From a virus: a stretch of DNA of 64,000 bases. Below are positions 731-47,651 of this stretch, in pieces. The notes beneath the pieces are model-generated. The model ran no database searches. It had not been told where the DNA came from and saw only the letters and a list, made by a program, of their open reading frames with translations. Both the position numbers and the translations under genes were made by a program. The first letter of the stretch is position 1. The number at the start of each line of letters is the position of its first letter. Location: positions 1 through 64,000 of the IMG/VR virus record IMGVR_UViG_3300017917_004642. One strand, given 5' to 3'.

Positions 731-1090
731 ATGGCAAAAGCATACGTAAATAATACGGACTTAATGGCTGCAATCCTACAGTCCAAAGAAAAGGGGCAGC
801 TAACGCCAGAAACAATTAAAATGTTTACCTTAATGATTCAGGGCATTTCTAAGAAAATGGCTTATAAAGACCCTGAAGATAGAGAGGATTGTATGGCTTT
901 TGCAATGGAGGACCTGGTTAAATATTGGAACAGATTCGATCCATCCAAGTCCAATAACCCATTTGCTTACTATACACAGATTGCTAAAAACGGTTTTGCC
1001 AAGGGGTGGAAAAAGATGCATCCGCCAAAAGCACCTAAAACAATTCCATTTTCATATATTACAGGCGACGATAATTCTTATAATGTTTAA
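731..1090 (+). CDS. gp55: Late-transcription sigma factor, T4 gp55-like
   Basis: Short sigma factor that directs host RNA polymerase to late promoters in T4-like phages. The 119-residue protein has the N-terminal YVNNxxLMAAI segment (residues 5-16), which resembles the start of T4 gp55. It also has the region-2-like segment FDPSKSNNPFAYYTQI (69-84), the most conserved part of the family. It is shorter than T4 gp55 (about 185 residues), lacking most of the C-terminal tail; the clamp-contacting end is not obvious here. It is followed after 5 bp by the head-completion gene. Its likely target is the GATATATA octamer found upstream of many late units in this window (inference). Confidence 0.87.
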   Translation: MAKAYVNNTDLMAAILQSKEKGQLTPETIKMFTLMIQGISKKMAYKDPEDREDCMAFAMEDLVKYWNRFDPSKSNNPFAYYTQIAKNGFAKGWKKMHPPKAPKTIPFSYITGDDNSYNV

Positions 1091-1095
1091 TCTAA

Positions 1096-1581
1096 ATGAC
1101 TGATATAAAAAAGATAAAGCCAAACGGTGATTATAAGTCTGGCCTTTTTGTACCTCAGAATCCAGACAAATACATCGGAGACGTTCACAATATAATTTGC
1201 AGATCCTCTTGGGAATTCAGATTTTGTAAATATTGCGATACGAACCCAAGAATATTAAAGTGGAGTTCGGAACCTGTTGTAATTCCTTATTACAATCCAT
1301 TGGACAAGAAGGAACATAATTATAATGTTGATTTCTATATGAAAGTTATACAGGAGGATGGGCAGGAAGCCGAATGGATAATCGAGATCAAGCCAGAGAA
1401 CCAACATAAAAAACCCATTTATGAAGGTAGCGCAACATTACCTAAGCTAAAATCTTACAACTACAAAATGCAAATTTGGATTACGAATCAATCTAAATTT
1501 AAAGCAGCAAGGGCTTGGGCAGAAGCAAGAGGAATGAAATTTGGTGTGGTTGATGAAAATTTCCTATTTAAAAGCTCGTGA
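1096..1581 (+). CDS. gp4: Head completion protein, T4 gp4-like (nuclease fold)
   Basis: Needed in T4 to finish DNA-filled heads so that tails can join. The protein (161 residues) matches the T4 gp4 pattern along its length: YIGDVHNIICRSSWE (26-40), the WSSE segment (56-59), NVDF (77-80) and IEIKP (96-100). The D79...E97-x-K99 arrangement is that of a PD-(D/E)xK/TnsA-like nuclease core. The C-terminal part (QIWITNQSKFKAARAWAEA) also follows gp4. Its stop overlaps the GTG start of the next gene (GTGA, 1578-1581), which indicates translational coupling. Confidence 0.88.
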   Translation: MTDIKKIKPNGDYKSGLFVPQNPDKYIGDVHNIICRSSWEFRFCKYCDTNPRILKWSSEPVVIPYYNPLDKKEHNYNVDFYMKVIQEDGQEAEWIIEIKPENQHKKPIYEGSATLPKLKSYNYKMQIWITNQSKFKAARAWAEARGMKFGVVDENFLFKSS

Positions 1582-2180
1582 AGACTTTTCTTGAACAGCT
1601 TAAACAGCTCAAGGAAAAATCCCAATCTATTTCAGCACTATCGTCTGAAGTGAATGCTTACATATCTAAAAAATATGGCGCTAATAGCAAAGGTGGCGAT
1701 GAATCTTTTAAAGACTTCGTAAGCGGTAAGATATATTTTTCTGAGTATATTACACCAACAAGGCTATCAGATAAGGTAAGATATATCAACAGATATCCAT
1801 TGTTTTTATTCGTTTCTGAGGAAAGGATTGACAATGAAACTATCTGCAAAGTTTTGGATCTAAATGTTATACCTCCTGAATACAGAGGAAATATTTTAAC
1901 TAAGATATTTGACCATTATTTTCAAAAGATCAACGAGAATAGTGAAGATCCAAATTCAGCACAGCAATCTTTAGGTCTAAATGGAATTGCATTACAATCC
2001 CTTTTGAAGGATACTGGATATCAGAGTTCTGTAACGGGATTTAAAAAGAAATATCTTATAAACCCTAAGGTCGTAGACTATAAGGATTGGGTAAGGATAC
2101 CCTACATTTCTATCTCTTCCATACAGGGTCTTCCAGTAGAGCAGATATATACTTCTTATAGATCGAAATTAAACCAATAA
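1578..2180 (+). CDS. Conserved-looking hypothetical, coupled to gp4
   Basis: A 200-residue protein starting with GTG inside the gp4 stop codon. I do not recognise the family. It is mixed alpha/beta with charged N-terminal helices and no signal peptide or membrane segment. Recognisable local features are a FSEYITPTRLSDKVRYINRY block (about 55-74) and IPPEYRGNILTKIFDHYFQK (about 97-116). Its place between head completion and portal genes suggests a virion-assembly role. A T4 gp53-type wedge sits at this position in T4, but the sequence does not look like gp53; a better gp53 candidate is at 36486. Confidence 0.7.
   Translation: MKTFLEQLKQLKEKSQSISALSSEVNAYISKKYGANSKGGDESFKDFVSGKIYFSEYITPTRLSDKVRYINRYPLFLFVSEERIDNETICKVLDLNVIPPEYRGNILTKIFDHYFQKINENSEDPNSAQQSLGLNGIALQSLLKDTGYQSSVTGFKKKYLINPKVVDYKDWVRIPYISISSIQGLPVEQIYTSYRSKLNQ
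2154..2161 (+). promoter_or_regulatory. Candidate late promoter GATATATA upstream of portals
   Basis: The octamer GATATATA lies inside the end of the preceding gene, 52 bp before the first portal ATG. It matches the motif seen upstream of most late units, but its intragenic location makes chance occurrence quite possible. Confidence 0.3.
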
Positions 2181-2213: not shown

Positions 2214-3866
2214 ATGCCAGGATTTGTAGAAAACCCAAACAGCAACCCAATTTTTCAGAGGATTAGAGACTCTGTTAAAAATCTGAGCAATTTCGGTTTG
2301 AGGTATGGAGATATGGTTGTTAAGAACTCGCAAGCAATCGGAACAACAGAAGCTGAGTTTCTAAAAAAAGGTCCGATCGAAGACGAGACAACTTTCTTTT
2401 CTTTAGGAAGACAGGATACAACAACCAGACAATACATTGCATACTTTGATAAAGATTATGCAGGAAAGAGAGATTATCTTAGAAAGTTCTCTTTGAACCC
2501 GGAGATTGAATACATCCTTGATACAATCTGTGACGAATCCATAACTTACGACCCGTTTAACTTTTTTGCATATCCAGCTTTTCTAAATCTTACTGGGCTA
2601 AAACCGAAAGTTGTAGACCGTGTCGATTCTGCCTACAAACAGCTGTATGACATGTTTGGATTCAATGACGACATCAGTGCATGGCAATATTTTAGACAAT
2701 TATTGGTAGATGGATTTATAGCATTCGAGATTGTATACGATGACAAGGGAAAAAATGTGATTGGATTTAAAGAATTGGATGCTACCACATTAATGTCATC
2801 TGTTGAAAAGCAGCCTGATGGTTCTTATCTTAATGTTTGGTACCAATACCCAAAAGATGAGAAGAAGAGAAGAATGCTTTACGACTCACAGATCATTTAC
2901 ATTTCTCACGCAAAAGGAAATTCAGTATCTAGAGTAAGCTATACAGAGCGTTTAATTCGTCCGTATAACGTTCTGAGGATCATCGAATACACAAGAGTAA
3001 TCTGGTCGGTGATGAATGCATCGTTTAGAATGAAAATGACCGTTCCTGTTGGGTCCAGATCACAACAAAAAGCAATGCAAACACTTGGAGAATTGATGAG
3101 CATCTATAAAGAAGATATTCAATTCAATGACGAGAGCGGAGAACTTGCGGTAAATGGACAGCCAAAGATTCAGTTTTATAAAAACTATCTTATGCCCAAG
3201 GGAGTAAATGGGACACCAACCATTGAGCCTTTAAATACCGCTGGACCAAATCTTAACGATCCAGCTCCTTTAGCTTATTTCTTCGATAAATTGGTCCAAG
3301 AATCTAAGGTACCTTTTTCGAGGTTTCAAGGACCAGATGGCGGATCAATAGGAAACTATTCGAATGCTGCTGAAGGACTAGACAAGGAAGAAATAAGATT
3401 TGCTAAGTTCATCATGAGACTTAGATCCAATTTCCAGGATATACTTATAAAGCCTTTGTGGCTTCAACTATGTAAAGATTTTCCAGAACTGGAGAAAGAT
3501 TACATGTTTAAAAGTCAGCTTGGATTAACTTTCATTTCGGATAACCCTTTTAGGGTAAACCAGGAAATCGAAAGCATGAGTAAGAAAAAAGAGTCTATCG
3601 ATGCTCTTTATGGATTACTTGGTGAGGATGGACAACCTTTCTTTTCGTTAGCTTATCTCATCGAAAATTATTTGGGCATGACTGAGGACGATATCCAAGC
3701 TAACAAAGAAGCTAAGCTTAAGAGAGAAAAAGAAAAGCAAAAAGAAGCTAAGAAAGCTCAAGCAGAAGCACCACCTGCAGAAAGTGAAGAAACCTCAACT
3801 AGCACAGAGACTGAAGCACCACCGGCAGAAGAAGCACCACCGGCAGAAGAGGCTACACCGGCTTAA
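2214..3866 (+). CDS. gp20: Portal protein A, T4 gp20-like
   Basis: Portal protein: a dodecameric ring at the unique head vertex through which DNA is packaged and ejected, and the nucleator of prohead assembly. 550 residues. The core resembles gp20: RVSYTERLIRPYNVLRIIEY, then NASFRMKMTVPVG, QKAMQTLGELM, and the segment PLAYFFDKLVQESKVPFSRF. The C-terminus is unusual, with a lysine-rich helix followed by a Pro/Ala/Glu tail containing repeated APPAEE blocks. A paralogue follows 15 bp downstream with clear similarity over the whole core, for instance NSQAIGTTEAEF here against NSQAIGATESTF there. Having two full-length gp20 homologues in tandem is not the T4 arrangement. Confidence 0.88.
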   Translation: MPGFVENPNSNPIFQRIRDSVKNLSNFGLRYGDMVVKNSQAIGTTEAEFLKKGPIEDETTFFSLGRQDTTTRQYIAYFDKDYAGKRDYLRKFSLNPEIEYILDTICDESITYDPFNFFAYPAFLNLTGLKPKVVDRVDSAYKQLYDMFGFNDDISAWQYFRQLLVDGFIAFEIVYDDKGKNVIGFKELDATTLMSSVEKQPDGSYLNVWYQYPKDEKKRRMLYDSQIIYISHAKGNSVSRVSYTERLIRPYNVLRIIEYTRVIWSVMNASFRMKMTVPVGSRSQQKAMQTLGELMSIYKEDIQFNDESGELAVNGQPKIQFYKNYLMPKGVNGTPTIEPLNTAGPNLNDPAPLAYFFDKLVQESKVPFSRFQGPDGGSIGNYSNAAEGLDKEEIRFAKFIMRLRSNFQDILIKPLWLQLCKDFPELEKDYMFKSQLGLTFISDNPFRVNQEIESMSKKKESIDALYGLLGEDGQPFFSLAYLIENYLGMTEDDIQANKEAKLKREKEKQKEAKKAQAEAPPAESEETSTSTETEAPPAEEAPPAEEATPA

Positions 3867-3881
3867 TAAAAAACTAGAGGA

Positions 3882-5474
3882 ATGGCAGGATTTTTAGATA
3901 ACTCAGTAGAAAGAACATTTTTAGGGAATTTATATAAGAACTTAGCTAAGGTTAGCAAGTTCGGTATGCAATATGAGGATATGGTTATTCGTAATTCTCA
4001 AGCAATTGGTGCCACTGAATCAACATTTTTTAATAGCGAGGGAACTGGATTTACCGAAAATAATGCTTTCTTCTGGACTCTAGGATATCAAGACACAAGG
4101 GTTAGAAAATACATTGCATATTTCGACAAGGATTATCTAGGAAAAAGAGACTTCCTGAGAAAATTTGCTTTGAATGGTGAGATTGATTTTATTCTGGATA
4201 CCCTTTCTGATGATGCTGTAAATTACGACGACAAGAATTTCTTTTCTTATCCAAGTTTAGTAAACATAGATCTAAAAGACGAGATAAAAGAAAAGGTAGA
4301 AGAGAACTTTAGAAATCTTTACATGCTATTTGGTTTCCAGCAGAGTATTCTTGCCTGGCAATACTTTAGACAATTTCTTATTGATGGATTTTTAGCTTTT
4401 GAGATCGTTTATTCAACCGACGGTAAAAAGATAGTAGGTTTTAAGGAATTAGATGCTACTTCTTTGCAACCTGCAACAGAGCAAATGCCGAATGGTGAAT
4501 TCCAACAGATCTGGATTCAGTACCCTCAAGATAATAGAATGACCAGAAAACTGAAATCTGAACAAGTTCTGTATCTTTCGTATGCTAAAGGTAACACGGT
4601 ATCTAGAGTAAGCTACACAGAAAGATTAATTAGATCTTATAACATTCTTAGAGTGATGGAAAACACCAGAGTAATCTGGAATGTTATGAATGCTTCTTAC
4701 CGTTTAAAGTTTGTTATCCCTGTTGGAACACAGTCCATGCAAAAGGCAATGCAAACTTTGGGGCAGTTAATGTCTGTGTACAAGGAAGAAATCCAAATCA
4801 ATGATTACTCAGGTGAACTTACAGTAAATGGTACACCTAAGGTTCAGTTTTATAAAAATTACCTTTTCCCTGAAAAAGATGGCGAATCTCCAGACATTAA
4901 CACATTAAACCCGTCTGGACCTGACTTCAACGTTATGGAGAACGTGGTTTATTTTTACAATAAGCTTAAGTTAGATTCAAAATTACCCTATGCAAGATTT
5001 GCATTTAGAGGTGGAACCCCTGCTAATTACCAAATCAGTATTGATCAGCTTGAGAGAGACGAGATTAGATACGAAAAATTTGTAGGCAGACTTAGATCTA
5101 TATTCCAAGAGATAATTGTAAAGCCTTTGTACATCCAAATGTGTTTGGATTTTCCTGAATTGTCTAAGGATAGAACTTTTAAGGCCAATCTTGGTTTGAA
5201 TTTTGTCAAAGAGAATATGTTTGAACAATTGATTCAGCTTTCTAATTACACAAAGAGATCTGATTTTATTACATCAATGGGAGATATGAAGCAGAGAATC
5301 GGTGAGGAAGAAGTTGCTTATTTTGACAAGGAATTCTTGATTAAAAGATGGCTTGGTTTAAGCATGGACGAATACAGGATGAACCAGAAGTACAAAGACG
5401 AAGAAGCAGCTCAGTCGGAAAAGAAGAAAGAAGAAGGAGGAGCAGAAGGAGCAGAGGGAGGATTTACCCTTTAA
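3882..5474 (+). CDS. gp20: Portal protein B, second gp20-like copy
   Basis: A tandem paralogue of the preceding portal gene, 530 residues, intact and with no sign of decay. It keeps the same landmarks: SKFGMQYEDMVIRNSQAIG near the N-terminus, YIAYFDKDYLGKRDFLRKFA, RVSYTERLIRSYNILRVMEN, NASYRLKFVIPVG and QKAMQTLGQLMSVYKEEI. It lacks the Pro/Ala/Glu tail of copy A and instead ends in a Lys/Glu/Gly-rich stretch. Either the two form a mixed ring, or one has been given another task such as a neck or prohead-initiation role. Choosing between these is not possible from sequence alone. Confidence 0.87.
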   Translation: MAGFLDNSVERTFLGNLYKNLAKVSKFGMQYEDMVIRNSQAIGATESTFFNSEGTGFTENNAFFWTLGYQDTRVRKYIAYFDKDYLGKRDFLRKFALNGEIDFILDTLSDDAVNYDDKNFFSYPSLVNIDLKDEIKEKVEENFRNLYMLFGFQQSILAWQYFRQFLIDGFLAFEIVYSTDGKKIVGFKELDATSLQPATEQMPNGEFQQIWIQYPQDNRMTRKLKSEQVLYLSYAKGNTVSRVSYTERLIRSYNILRVMENTRVIWNVMNASYRLKFVIPVGTQSMQKAMQTLGQLMSVYKEEIQINDYSGELTVNGTPKVQFYKNYLFPEKDGESPDINTLNPSGPDFNVMENVVYFYNKLKLDSKLPYARFAFRGGTPANYQISIDQLERDEIRYEKFVGRLRSIFQEIIVKPLYIQMCLDFPELSKDRTFKANLGLNFVKENMFEQLIQLSNYTKRSDFITSMGDMKQRIGEEEVAYFDKEFLIKRWLGLSMDEYRMNQKYKDEEAAQSEKKKEEGGAEGAEGGFTL

Positions 5475-17426: not shown

Positions 17427-19457
17427 ATGACTGAAGGAATGGAAAAATCCACGTCTATGAACGAAAATCTGGTTTTTATTCTAGAGAAGCAATCCAATAA
17501 TTTGTCTGCTTCAAAAGAAAAGACTAACGACGGAGACAGCTATGTTCTTCAGGGTATTGCCGCTCAATTTGGCAAAGAGAACAACAACAACAGAATCTAC
17601 GAGGAAGGTGAGTATTTACCACACCTAGATTATTTGAACGACAAGATTTCTCAAAAAAGATTACTTGGCGAGTTGGATCACCCTGAAAAATTTGATGTAT
17701 CGCTAAAAAACATCTCACACGTTATCGAGGAGCTTTCTTACGATAAAGATGGAAGAGTCCTTAAGATAAAAGTTAGATTGTTGGATACACCAGCTGGACA
17801 AATTGCAAAAAAATTAGTTGATGCTGGAATTCCTCTTTCTATTTCATCAAGAGCAGCAGGAAATGTTGGCCCTGATAAAAAAGTACAGATCAAAAAAATC
17901 TTTACTTATGATTTAGTTGCTGATCCTGGATTTCAGGATGCACAACTTGAACGCGTTTACGAAAGCGCAGGTTTTACGTTTTCTGAATTCTCAGAAAGAA
18001 CCAAAAATTCTATTGTTAATTCTTTAGTGTGCATGAACGAATCATTAGGTATTAAAAATGATTCTGGATTGATGATATATAATGTCGACAATAACGAAGA
18101 ATTCGAAAAAATCTTTAAGCAAGAAAAAAATAAATCCGATATTATGGAGTCCAATAAAAAAGAATTTGTAACTAGCGAAGAGCTCAATAGTTATTCGATT
18201 TTCCTTAAGAAAAAGATGGATGAACTTGAGTCTCAGATCTCTGAGATGAAAAAAACACCCGCAGCAGTTTCTGAAAACAAAACCGAAGAAGTTTCTGAAC
18301 TCGAAGAAAGAGTTGCTCGTTTAGAAAAGTACTCCGAGTACCTAGCAGAAAATTTGGAAAGCGCAATTAAGTATGGCGAATACCTCGCAGAAAATCTTGA
18401 TAGCAGCATTACTTACAGTAAGTATTTGGCTGAAAACCTAGACAAAACTATTTCATACTCGAAATACATTGCAGAAAACGTAGATAAGTCTATTTCTTAT
18501 TCTGAGTATGTAGCAGAGAATGTAGATAAAGCAATCGATTACTCTAAGTATTTGGCTGAGAAAGTAGATGACAATATCCAGTACACAGAATACGTTGCTG
18601 AAAATTTGGATAAGACCATTTCTTATTCTGAATACTTAGCAGAAAACGTAGATAAGTCTATCTCTTATTCTGAGTATCTTGCAGAAAACCTTGACAAAGG
18701 TATTGCTTATTCTGAGTACATTGCAGAAAAACTAGATCAAGGTATTTCTTACACTGAGTATCTTGCAGAAAATGTAAACAAGACCATTTCTTATTCTGAG
18801 TATCTTGCAGAAAGCTTAAATAAAGGAATTGCTTATTCCGATTATTTGGCAGAAAAATTAAATGGCACGATTTCTAATGCCGAATCTCTTTCAGAAGGTG
18901 AAAAGACTACTAAAGTCAATTCACTTAACGAAAGCGCAAAAGAACAAGCAGAAATCGCTTCTAAAACTGAATTAGTAGAGTCTGGATTTGCTGGTGATTA
19001 TGGATCACTTTCAAATCAACTAGACGCTCTGATTGAATCAGTCCAAACACAAAAGACTGACGAATTAATACAAAAGGCTGAAAGCAAATTCCAGCCAGCT
19101 GCTCAAACACAAAAAGCGGAAGAGACTTTAAATGAGAACGAAGCATCAGCTAAAGTTCAGTCATCAGGTCACAAGTTTATTGATGAAATGCCCGAAGATT
19201 ACGTTCAGATTTGGGAATCTCTAAATGAAGGTCACAAGCAATCAGTTATTGCACAATCAACTTTCTACAATTTAGAAACACCTTATCAGATCAAAAATTT
19301 CTGGTCAACTCGTCAGCTTGGTGCTAAACCTGTTGGTCTTCAGAAACTCACTGAAAGTCAAGAAACAACAACCACTTCAACCACTTCAGCTCAACCTTAT
19401 AACTCAGATTATCTGGCATGGGTGGCTAAGTCATTAGAAGGAAAATTCAAAAACTAA
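17427..19457 (+). CDS. gp21: Prohead protease fused to scaffold core protein
   Basis: 676 residues. The N-terminal ~175 residues are a T4 gp21-type prohead protease: NNRIYEEGEYL, LGELDHPEKF with H85 and PLSISSRAAG with S140 or S141 as predicted catalytic residues, then FTYDLVADPGFQDA. The rest is scaffold-like: a charged helical part, then thirteen 14-residue repeats (302-483) of the type YSEYLAENLDKTIS, then an acidic tail with several (L/I)-x-E sites. In T4, protease (gp21) and main scaffold (gp22) are separate genes. Here they are one chain, which fixes their ratio unless processing or internal starts intervene. The major capsid gene follows directly. Confidence 0.87.
   Translation: MTEGMEKSTSMNENLVFILEKQSNNLSASKEKTNDGDSYVLQGIAAQFGKENNNNRIYEEGEYLPHLDYLNDKISQKRLLGELDHPEKFDVSLKNISHVIEELSYDKDGRVLKIKVRLLDTPAGQIAKKLVDAGIPLSISSRAAGNVGPDKKVQIKKIFTYDLVADPGFQDAQLERVYESAGFTFSEFSERTKNSIVNSLVCMNESLGIKNDSGLMIYNVDNNEEFEKIFKQEKNKSDIMESNKKEFVTSEELNSYSIFLKKKMDELESQISEMKKTPAAVSENKTEEVSELEERVARLEKYSEYLAENLESAIKYGEYLAENLDSSITYSKYLAENLDKTISYSKYIAENVDKSISYSEYVAENVDKAIDYSKYLAEKVDDNIQYTEYVAENLDKTISYSEYLAENVDKSISYSEYLAENLDKGIAYSEYIAEKLDQGISYTEYLAENVNKTISYSEYLAESLNKGIAYSDYLAEKLNGTISNAESLSEGEKTTKVNSLNESAKEQAEIASKTELVESGFAGDYGSLSNQLDALIESVQTQKTDELIQKAESKFQPAAQTQKAEETLNENEASAKVQSSGHKFIDEMPEDYVQIWESLNEGHKQSVIAQSTFYNLETPYQIKNFWSTRQLGAKPVGLQKLTESQETTTTSTTSAQPYNSDYLAWVAKSLEGKFKN
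18330..18875 (+). repeat. Thirteen tandem 42-bp units (14-residue repeat)
   Basis: Thirteen consecutive in-frame units encode variants of YSEYLAENLDKTIS, residues 302-483 of the protease-scaffold protein. DNA copies differ mostly at synonymous sites, while Y1, Y4, A6, E7 and I13 are nearly fixed. The 14-residue period equals two heptads and suits a long amphipathic helix or coiled coil. Each unit contains L/I/V-A-E, the general form of the T4 prohead-protease cleavage site. Confidence 0.95.
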
Positions 19458-19471
19458 AAAAACATAAAAAA

Positions 19472-21190
19472 ATGAAACTCATCAACGAAGCAGAAATCTT
19501 CGATACCTGGGCGCCTATCATTGAGCAAAAAGCCGGTATTGTTGATTCAGAAAAAAAACAGTGGCTTTCTAAATACTGCCACTACCACTCATTAAACGAA
19601 TCAGCTGGTGCTTACCAGTCTTTGAACGTTGTTAACGGTATGGGTCCCGTTGCACCTCCAGCATTCCCAGCTTCTACGCAAGCAGGTTCTGTAGGCGGTT
19701 ATTCACCTAACCAAGGATTCTACAGCCAGTCATGGCAAGGATCTGGCGATAAATTCCCTTCACTTCTTCCTTTGGCTATTCAGGTAGCTGCGAAGACTGT
19801 AGGTTTTGATATCGTTCCAGTTATCCCTATGTCAGGTCCTTCAGGCGTATTGTCATACCTTGACTACGTTTACGCTGGTGGTAAAGTTAGCCCAGCAAGT
19901 GTTGGTACAACCTCTGCAGATGCTTTGGCTGCTGCTCCAACCATGATCAAAGTACAGATCACTTCTTATGCTGCAGGTTATCCTGATTCATTCGTAGTTG
20001 GTACTACTTACTACATCACTAACGCTACATCAGCAAGTGCTTACTTGACTACCAAATTTGTTGGTCTTTCAAGAATCGATGGTTATCCTATCTTCGAAAT
20101 CACCGACGTAACTGCAGGTGAGTCAGTAGCTTCTGTAATTAACGGTGGTGCTACTAAAATTGGTACAGCTCCTGACGGTTCACAAGCTGGTACTACTACT
20201 GCTTCTGCATCTTTGGTAAAAGCTCTTGAAGATCATATCCAAGGTTTCTCTGGTGCTGGTTTCTATGACAACCAAAACTGGCAAGGTCCTTTCGTAGATG
20301 GTACCAAGACTTACAACCCAATGTTGAGAAGCGTAGGAGAAGAAAACTACTACAACTTGATGGGTCTTTCGACTTTCACCAAGTTCGTAGAAGCTGATAC
20401 TTTCCAAGTAGCTGCTTCAGTTACAACTGAGCAAATCCAAGATCTTAATAAGCAATTCGGTATCGACGTAATTTCTATGATCGAGAACGCATTGGTTAAT
20501 GAGGTTTCACAAGCTATTAACAAGCACATCCTTGCTAGAGCTTTTGCTCTTGGTTGGTCTAACAACAACGCTTTCTTCACAACTGAAGGCCAAAACCTTA
20601 ACCTTAACCTTGTAATTGGTGGTACTGCTGGTTCTTACACCATCCCATCTTACGTAGGTAAAGACGATACCGCCATCACAATGGCTGGTACTGCTGGTCC
20701 TGCTAGCACAAACTACGAGAACTTGTCAACTTTACAAAGAAGATTGTTCTCTAGAATTCTTGCTGCAGCTAACGTAGTAGCTAACAGAGGTAGAAGAGGT
20801 CCTGCTAACTTCATCGTAACTAACGCTAACTTGGCGTCTTCGATGCAAGATATCAGCCAATTCACTTTCGCTCCATTCTCAAACACCCTTACCCAAAACA
20901 ACGGAACTCTTTATCCAGTAGGTTCTCTTGCAGGTATGACAGTGTATGTAGATCAGAACATGAAATACAATGACACTAGAATCCTTATCGGTAGAAAAGG
21001 TGGTGATGATGAGCCAGGTTTGAAATTCATGCCTTACATGATGGCTGAGTCAATCCAGACTATTTCTGAAGGAACTATGTCTCCTAAGATCGCAGTTAAG
21101 TCACGTTATGCTTTAGTAGAAGCTGGTTTCCATCCAGAAACTATGTATTTCTGCTTCAACGTTAACGTTCCAACTGGCGGTTTGAACTAA
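19472..21190 (+). CDS. gp23: Major capsid protein, T4 gp23-like
   Basis: 572 residues (T4 gp23 has 521). It follows the protease-scaffold gene as in T4 (21-22-23 order). The N-terminal segment MKLINEAEIFDTWAPIIEQK and the block YCHYHSLNESAG (35-46) precede the mature shell sequence. Cleavage after L41-N42-E43 would match the gp23-type propeptide removal by the gp21 protease. GSGDKFPSLLPLAIQVAAKTVGFDIVPVIPM (key residues about 91-121) is a conserved HK97-fold start. The gene is visibly richer in C-ending codons (AAC, TTC, ATC) than its neighbours, as expected for a very highly expressed product. A strong terminator follows. Confidence 0.93.
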   Translation: MKLINEAEIFDTWAPIIEQKAGIVDSEKKQWLSKYCHYHSLNESAGAYQSLNVVNGMGPVAPPAFPASTQAGSVGGYSPNQGFYSQSWQGSGDKFPSLLPLAIQVAAKTVGFDIVPVIPMSGPSGVLSYLDYVYAGGKVSPASVGTTSADALAAAPTMIKVQITSYAAGYPDSFVVGTTYYITNATSASAYLTTKFVGLSRIDGYPIFEITDVTAGESVASVINGGATKIGTAPDGSQAGTTTASASLVKALEDHIQGFSGAGFYDNQNWQGPFVDGTKTYNPMLRSVGEENYYNLMGLSTFTKFVEADTFQVAASVTTEQIQDLNKQFGIDVISMIENALVNEVSQAINKHILARAFALGWSNNNAFFTTEGQNLNLNLVIGGTAGSYTIPSYVGKDDTAITMAGTAGPASTNYENLSTLQRRLFSRILAAANVVANRGRRGPANFIVTNANLASSMQDISQFTFAPFSNTLTQNNGTLYPVGSLAGMTVYVDQNMKYNDTRILIGRKGGDDEPGLKFMPYMMAESIQTISEGTMSPKIAVKSRYALVEAGFHPETMYFCFNVNVPTGGLN

Positions 21191-46871: not shown

Positions 46872-47651
46872 ATGACACTAGAGGAACTAATACAGGAAAT
46901 TAAAGATGATATTTCAGCAAGTTGCTCTTTGCCTTACAATCTGAATGACGACGAGATAATACGTATTATCAATCGTGCTAAGGCCTGGATGTATGATAAC
47001 TATCAATACTCAGTGGAAAAAAGATACTTCGTTCTAGCGAATTATTTTTTCCAAACACCTCAGTTTAGAAACACCAGACAGATTCAACTTCCTCCGAAGA
47101 TTGTGACCGTTTTTGACGTTAGACAAACCAACGGCAATGGAATTTCTGGAAACCCTGATAAAGACTTTAGCGATTCTAAATTGCTTGGATCTGAATTATT
47201 GCTTTCTCCATTTACTGGGGACAACTTAGTTTACCGTACAGTAATGTACTCTTACTTTGATTTAGCTCAGGCATATGTTTTGCCGACCTACGCTTTTAAC
47301 TGGAATAAAAACACCAAGAAGCTTACAATCTTAGGACGAGATCCAGCAAGAAGCGGAAATAACACGTCCACTGGAACTGGAGCTGGACACATGGGTCAGG
47401 ATTTGGCTGTTAGCTGTTTTGTTGCCATCGAAGACTATGAGTTATTCCAAGATGAATTGTTTGTTAGATACTGCATGGCAAAAGCAAAAATTTCCCTTTC
47501 TAGAGTATTAAGTGCATTTGATTATAACCTGCCAGGTGGTGTAAAAGTTAACACATCCCTGATAAGACAAGATGGCGAAAGAGAACTTCAGGAGGTTATG
47601 GATATGATAAACGGCGAAAACACTCCGTCTTATTTCTTGCAATGGAATTGA
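46872..47651 (+). CDS. Candidate neck or head-tail connector protein
   Basis: 259 residues, starting one base after the previous stop. The N-terminal helices (EELIQEIKDDI... DDEIIRIINRAKAWMYDN) followed by QIQLPPKIVTVFDVRQTNG resemble neck/connector proteins in which helices precede a strand core; gp13-like in T4 terms, but only weakly. The C-terminal helix RYCMAKAKISLSRVLSAFD is also typical. Not a firm identification. Confidence 0.5.
   Translation: MTLEELIQEIKDDISASCSLPYNLNDDEIIRIINRAKAWMYDNYQYSVEKRYFVLANYFFQTPQFRNTRQIQLPPKIVTVFDVRQTNGNGISGNPDKDFSDSKLLGSELLLSPFTGDNLVYRTVMYSYFDLAQAYVLPTYAFNWNKNTKKLTILGRDPARSGNNTSTGTGAGHMGQDLAVSCFVAIEDYELFQDELFVRYCMAKAKISLSRVLSAFDYNLPGGVKVNTSLIRQDGERELQEVMDMINGENTPSYFLQWN

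Follow-up and report, generated by a model that had tools for sequence, protein, structure and literature searches.

The portal is the ring by which DNA passes into and out of a phage head. Portals of tailed phages and herpesviruses are described in the open literature surveyed as rings of one protein. In T4, a structural protein duplicated and specialised within one virion is represented by the capsid paralogues gp23 and gp24, with gp24 at the vertices. Hetero-oligomeric rings derived from duplicated homomers include the archaeal thermosome and MCM2-7.

The closest described portal is T4 gp20 (PF07230; PDB 3ja7, 6uzc, 9lu6, 9mkb), a one-protein ring encoded by one gene. The DNA is contacted by an inner clip loop, a channel loop at the start of stem helix 2, and a tunnel loop (PMC4493910). 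On the tail side, a gp13 dodecamer links the portal to the gp14 hexamer (PMC12270204). Here we describe a large lineage of environmental phages, themselves large, that carries two diverged genes of this family side by side. No heteromeric or duplicated portal was found in open-access full text; subscription papers and preprints lay largely outside this search, and an earlier description is possible.

Two portal genes among head morphogenesis genes

The window, meaning the whole 64,000-nt stretch of DNA analysed, is part of an 83.6-kb viral contig. The features relevant to the analysis are as follows, with the two portal paralogues referred to as A and B.

731..1090, plus strand: late sigma-type factor, a neighbour conserved in synteny whether the phage has the pair or a single portal
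1096..1581, plus strand: head closure protein (phrog_218), syntenic neighbour
1578..2180, plus strand: 200-aa protein adjoining the portal, upstream of the single portal in outgroups too
2214..3866, plus strand: portal paralogue A, 550 aa, T4 gp20 family (PF07230, 204 bits; phrog_213; Foldseek to 6uzc, 1e-16)
3261..3386, plus strand: stem helix 2 and tunnel loop of A (aa 350-391), which line the channel and hardly vary among the A copies of the window's clade (located by alignment with the T4 gp20 domains, PMC4493910)
3717..3863, plus strand: C-terminal tail of A, Pro/Ala/Glu-rich, without a TL end
3867..3881, plus strand: A-B spacer, 15 bp
3882..5474, plus strand: portal paralogue B, 530 aa, T4 gp20 family (PF07230, 195 bits; phrog_213; Foldseek to 9lu7, 9e-18)
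4935..5057, plus strand: stem helix 2 and tunnel loop of B (aa 352-392), hardly varying among the B copies of the window's clade and unlike A
5397..5471, plus strand: C-terminal tail of B, Lys/Glu/Gly-rich, ending in a conserved FTL
17427..19457, plus strand: single-copy head maturation protease with a long extension at its C-terminus
19472..21190, plus strand: major capsid protein, single copy
46872..47651, plus strand: head-tail adaptor Ad2-like neck protein, single copy

A preliminary description of this DNA had reported two full-length portal paralogues in tandem, separated by 15 bp, and its coordinates proved exact. Both proteins cover nearly the whole of the PF07230 Portal_T4 profile (cut-off 22.9 bits), and they are 49% identical to each other over 507 aa. 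T4 gp20 was the top Foldseek match for the AlphaFold (AF2) models of both A and B, and the AF2 secondary structure together with this match placed the clip, stem, wing and crown in the same order in each, at a modest mean pLDDT of 64. Judged from their sequences, A and B are members of the gp20 family by every feature tested except single copy: they have in common with T4 gp20 the full-length profile, the predicted fold, the clip-stem-wing-crown order and the head-gene neighbourhood. The difference is that T4 has one gene and a one-protein ring, whereas the lineage of the window retains two diverged genes together.

The pair is located among head morphogenesis genes, with the head-closure gene upstream and the protease and capsid genes 12 kb downstream, and besides A and B no paralogous ORF pair was found within the window. 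The spacer between A and B ranges from 2 to 23 bp among the close relatives measured and therefore leaves no room for a separate promoter. Fusion of A to B by readthrough or a recoded stop was considered and rejected; two TAA stops (TAA TAA) precede B, and the length and frame of the spacer vary among relatives.

Some additional features of the neighbourhood were recorded. The head maturation protease carries approximately 450 extra residues, with the same layout in single-portal relatives, and may be a protease-scaffold fusion. A 143-aa ORF with imperfect repeats resembling 'MDIDPDLAxAPG...YNVDE' lies at 73-504, beside the late sigma-type gene. Many relatives contain a cargo gene, absent from the window, between portal B and a DNA ligase gene; in contig L003 (9608-10615) it resembles by eye a PfkB-type sugar kinase.

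Retention and ancestry of the pair

Viral contigs were searched with A and with B as queries, which identified 151 distinct contigs of the lineage. The tandem A-B order was present in every contig that covered both genes (126 of 151); in the other 25 the pair was cut by a contig end. Both copies were intact and adjacent in 124 of these 126 contigs, and each of the other two had one break. In L206, portal A is interrupted by a single in-frame TAG (about 2973-2975), which may be a sequencing error, a nonsense variant or a suppressible stop, and is otherwise intact; in L343 there is a frameshift in B. Neither search, by A or by B, found a contig that had room for the partner gene and lacked it. 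The retained pairs range from 96% to about 54% identity to the copies in the window, and the longest records (151-373 kb) have exactly two portals each. The contigs are not fully independent, the clade of the window contributing 53 distinct pairs, of which 29 are below 97%. The preliminary description had found neither window copy decayed, and the same was true of the relatives, where decay of the second copy was looked for and did not occur. An assembly artefact, a chance event or a recent copy was ruled out by the 49% identity of the paralogues and by their recurrence in 124 contigs.

One portal per genome, the usual situation in the T4-type family although its sequence- or fold-based definition does not require it, is not what was found in the window and its covered relatives, which have two. 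Group O, the closest relatives to lack the pair, is about 44% identical to each paralogue and comprises the 462-kb huge phage LR756500 and many environmental IMG/VR contigs, all with one portal at the locus. Each of the 12 single-portal records that were searched whole contained one full-length portal. When B was compared with the annotated phage collection, it matched 2,066 records at 2,068 places, the two extra places being due to one 735-kb genome that was deposited twice. This extra match in LR756501 (735 kb) was rejected as a second portal: it is a lone 101-aa crown-like ORF, corresponding to the C-terminal region of a portal only, and is found on the minus strand (L087 1486-1788) far from the true portal gene. 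The Lak megaphages also have a single portal, 33-37% identical to A and B.

Gene order upstream of the portal is common to the window and group O (sigma factor, head closure, 200-aa protein, portal). The portal of group O is located directly before the protease and capsid genes, whereas in the window a replication block lies in between. In the 462-kb phage two related endonuclease-like ORFs (L083 5183-6796 and 13423-15222) flank the portal-capsid block and look by eye like mobile homing genes.

In the phylogenetic tree, A, B and the single-copy O sequences formed one clade each, with B the more weakly supported (81/70 in the careful tree). A separate duplication in the deepest clade was rejected (AU p 0.001), as was a separate duplication on the window's side (AU p 0.0002). 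This topology and the rejection of separate duplications show one ancient duplication, which predates the split of all clades found. Gene conversion was rejected, A-B identity being 0.498 within the same contig and 0.497 across contigs.

Strong purifying selection acts on A and B, and they evolve equally fast. Within the clade of the window their stems are equal (1.12 and 1.13), the mean identity is 0.80 within A and 0.80 within B, and each is 0.434 identical to group O; dN/dS is about 0.03 and 0.02 for the two copies, as calculated from only three unsaturated pairs. The question raised in the preliminary description of which copy is under the stronger constraint thus has the answer that neither is. 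The identities of A, taken pair by pair, correlate with those of B at 0.95, more than in any other pair of neighbouring genes tested, although this correlation can be explained by shared phylogeny alone.

Divergence in the DNA channel and exchange of tails

We took the domain limits for A and B from T4 gp20 (PMC4493910) and compared the paralogues domain by domain. In the clade of the window, A-B identity was 0.57-0.78 in the wing, stem 1 and clip, but fell to 0.35 for stem 2 and 0.34 for the tunnel loop, although both rank with the most conserved regions when A or B is considered by itself. For stem 2 and tunnel loop together the A-B identity was 0.345, versus 0.61 (minimum 0.44) in 147 orthologous pairs of group O with the same core divergence, and it was 0.41 or less in all 841 A-B pairs. 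Fixed differences between A and B were enriched in this channel region (odds ratio 5.4, p 2e-4), the excess divergence having been noticed before it was tested, and a scan-wide permutation over windows gave weaker values (p 0.008-0.06). By this sequence comparison, the channel-lining stem helix and tunnel loop are where A and B of the window's lineage differ most, beyond what is found in orthologues at equal distance. The middle clade showed a strong contrast as well (0.28), the deepest clade a weaker one (0.43; ratio 0.79), and because of the latter, specialisation of the channel may postdate the duplication. An ancestral-state partition, in which A keeps the channel of the outgroup and B its clip, reached only p 0.03-0.05 with few sites and was not relied upon.

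The preliminary description had contrasted a Pro/Ala/Glu-rich with a Lys/Glu/Gly-rich C-terminal tail, and this contrast stands in the window; among relatives, the tail type is not bound to the paralogue. All B copies in the clade of the window terminate in a TL-type motif, FTL in most cases, and their A partners carry a Pro/Ala/Glu tail. The deepest clade is reversed, with A ending in F(T/K)L and B having a Pro/Ala/Thr tail. In the middle clade both copies usually end in TL, the motif being found on both or on either. Such swaps between clades ruled out tail type as a fixed property of a paralogue. Comparison of contigs L378-L402 with L003-L082 shows tail types exchanged between clades on cores that keep their A or B identity, which suggests 3'-end exchange or convergent tail replacement between the tandem paralogues. 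At least one TL-type end was present in 77 of 78 distinct pairs. As read from these sequences, the need for the tail is met by the pair and not by a particular paralogue.

Proposed role of the two proteins in the portal

It is mainly because the pair as a whole meets the need for the tail that we place both proteins in one complex. On balance we lean toward a single portal complex that needs both A and B as subunits; its most likely form is a mixed dodecamer, perhaps an alternating A6B6 ring. Such a mixed ring is favoured because it agrees with the equal constraint on both copies, their retention together, their arrangement in one operon and the exchangeable tails, the last as one would predict for a tail that acts on behalf of a shared complex. 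We are more tentative in proposing that a whole lineage of large phages could have an obligatory heteromeric, alternating A6B6 portal with differing DNA-contact loops and internal tails, six-fold rather than twelve-fold in symmetry. What we infer here is the co-assembly, the 1:1 ratio, the alternation and the function, be it DNA grip or gating, or matching to the neck.

An ancestral homomeric portal of the gp20 type would have been duplicated once, and the copies, sharing a ring interface, would have continued to co-assemble. Selection may then have split their roles: the lineage of the window would have fixed two versions of the channel stem helix and tunnel loop, and the C-terminal tails inside the head may have become two types to be supplied by the pair as a whole. 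With A and B alternating as A6B6, the 12-fold ring would become 6-fold, its DNA-contact loops alternating over the six-fold tail, and such a ring could match the six-fold neck and tail. The proposed evolutionary route is that of the archaeal thermosome and MCM2-7; no such viral portal was found in the open literature surveyed. A and B are like gp23 and gp24 in being a duplicated structural ring or lattice protein, the difference being that gp24 has a separate site whereas a portal has one site per head. A lineage that keeps two diverged portal subunits is a natural test of the role of each ring position. The pair makes it testable how a 12-fold ring meets a 5-fold capsid and a 6-fold tail, and whether each channel loop works by itself or all work together, and it offers two separately tunable subunits for portal studies.

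The clip and wing also differ between A and B (about 60% identity), a point against the mixed ring that makes separate homomeric rings possible. A12 and B12 would then be alternatives, each founding its own heads, either as two particle types or for different conditions or hosts. The complete portal fold and strong constraint of both proteins are in keeping with this, as are the two versions of the channel loops that became fixed in the clade of the window. We nevertheless consider it unlikely, as it requires insulation between rings of common origin with about 60% core identity, does not predict the swap of tails between cores, and has to accommodate one operon with capsid and protease genes in single copy.

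Somewhat more doubtful still is that one paralogue is the real portal and the other an assembly factor absent from the mature ring, such as an initiator bound to the membrane or a template removed at a later stage. An initiator role is conceivable given that head assembly in T4 begins on gp20 at the membrane (PMC4493910), and the TL tail is usually on one member only. However, the member bearing the tail changes between clades, no domain has been lost from either copy, and both are equally slow in their evolution.

The preliminary description had suggested three readings: a mixed ring, a second portal-like ring in the neck, and stage-specific use. The mixed ring fits best of the three because divergence is symmetric, retention is at the level of the pair, and tail types are swapped between subunits. 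A second neck ring is improbable and gained no positive support: the clip, docking site of neck proteins, is kept in both paralogues, but so are the wing and crown, which face the capsid and DNA and would be useless in the neck, and pair-carrying and single-portal phages alike have a protein of neck type (phrog_211, head-tail adaptor Ad2). No portal is known to stack in this way. Simple dosage or redundancy of two interchangeable portals would account for the equal rates of A and B, yet is the least probable of these explanations given their 49% identity, the paralogue-specific channel residues fixed across clades, and the near absence of loss in 126 contigs since an old duplication. Stage-specific use of the two portals is conceivable but hard to square with a single tight operon.
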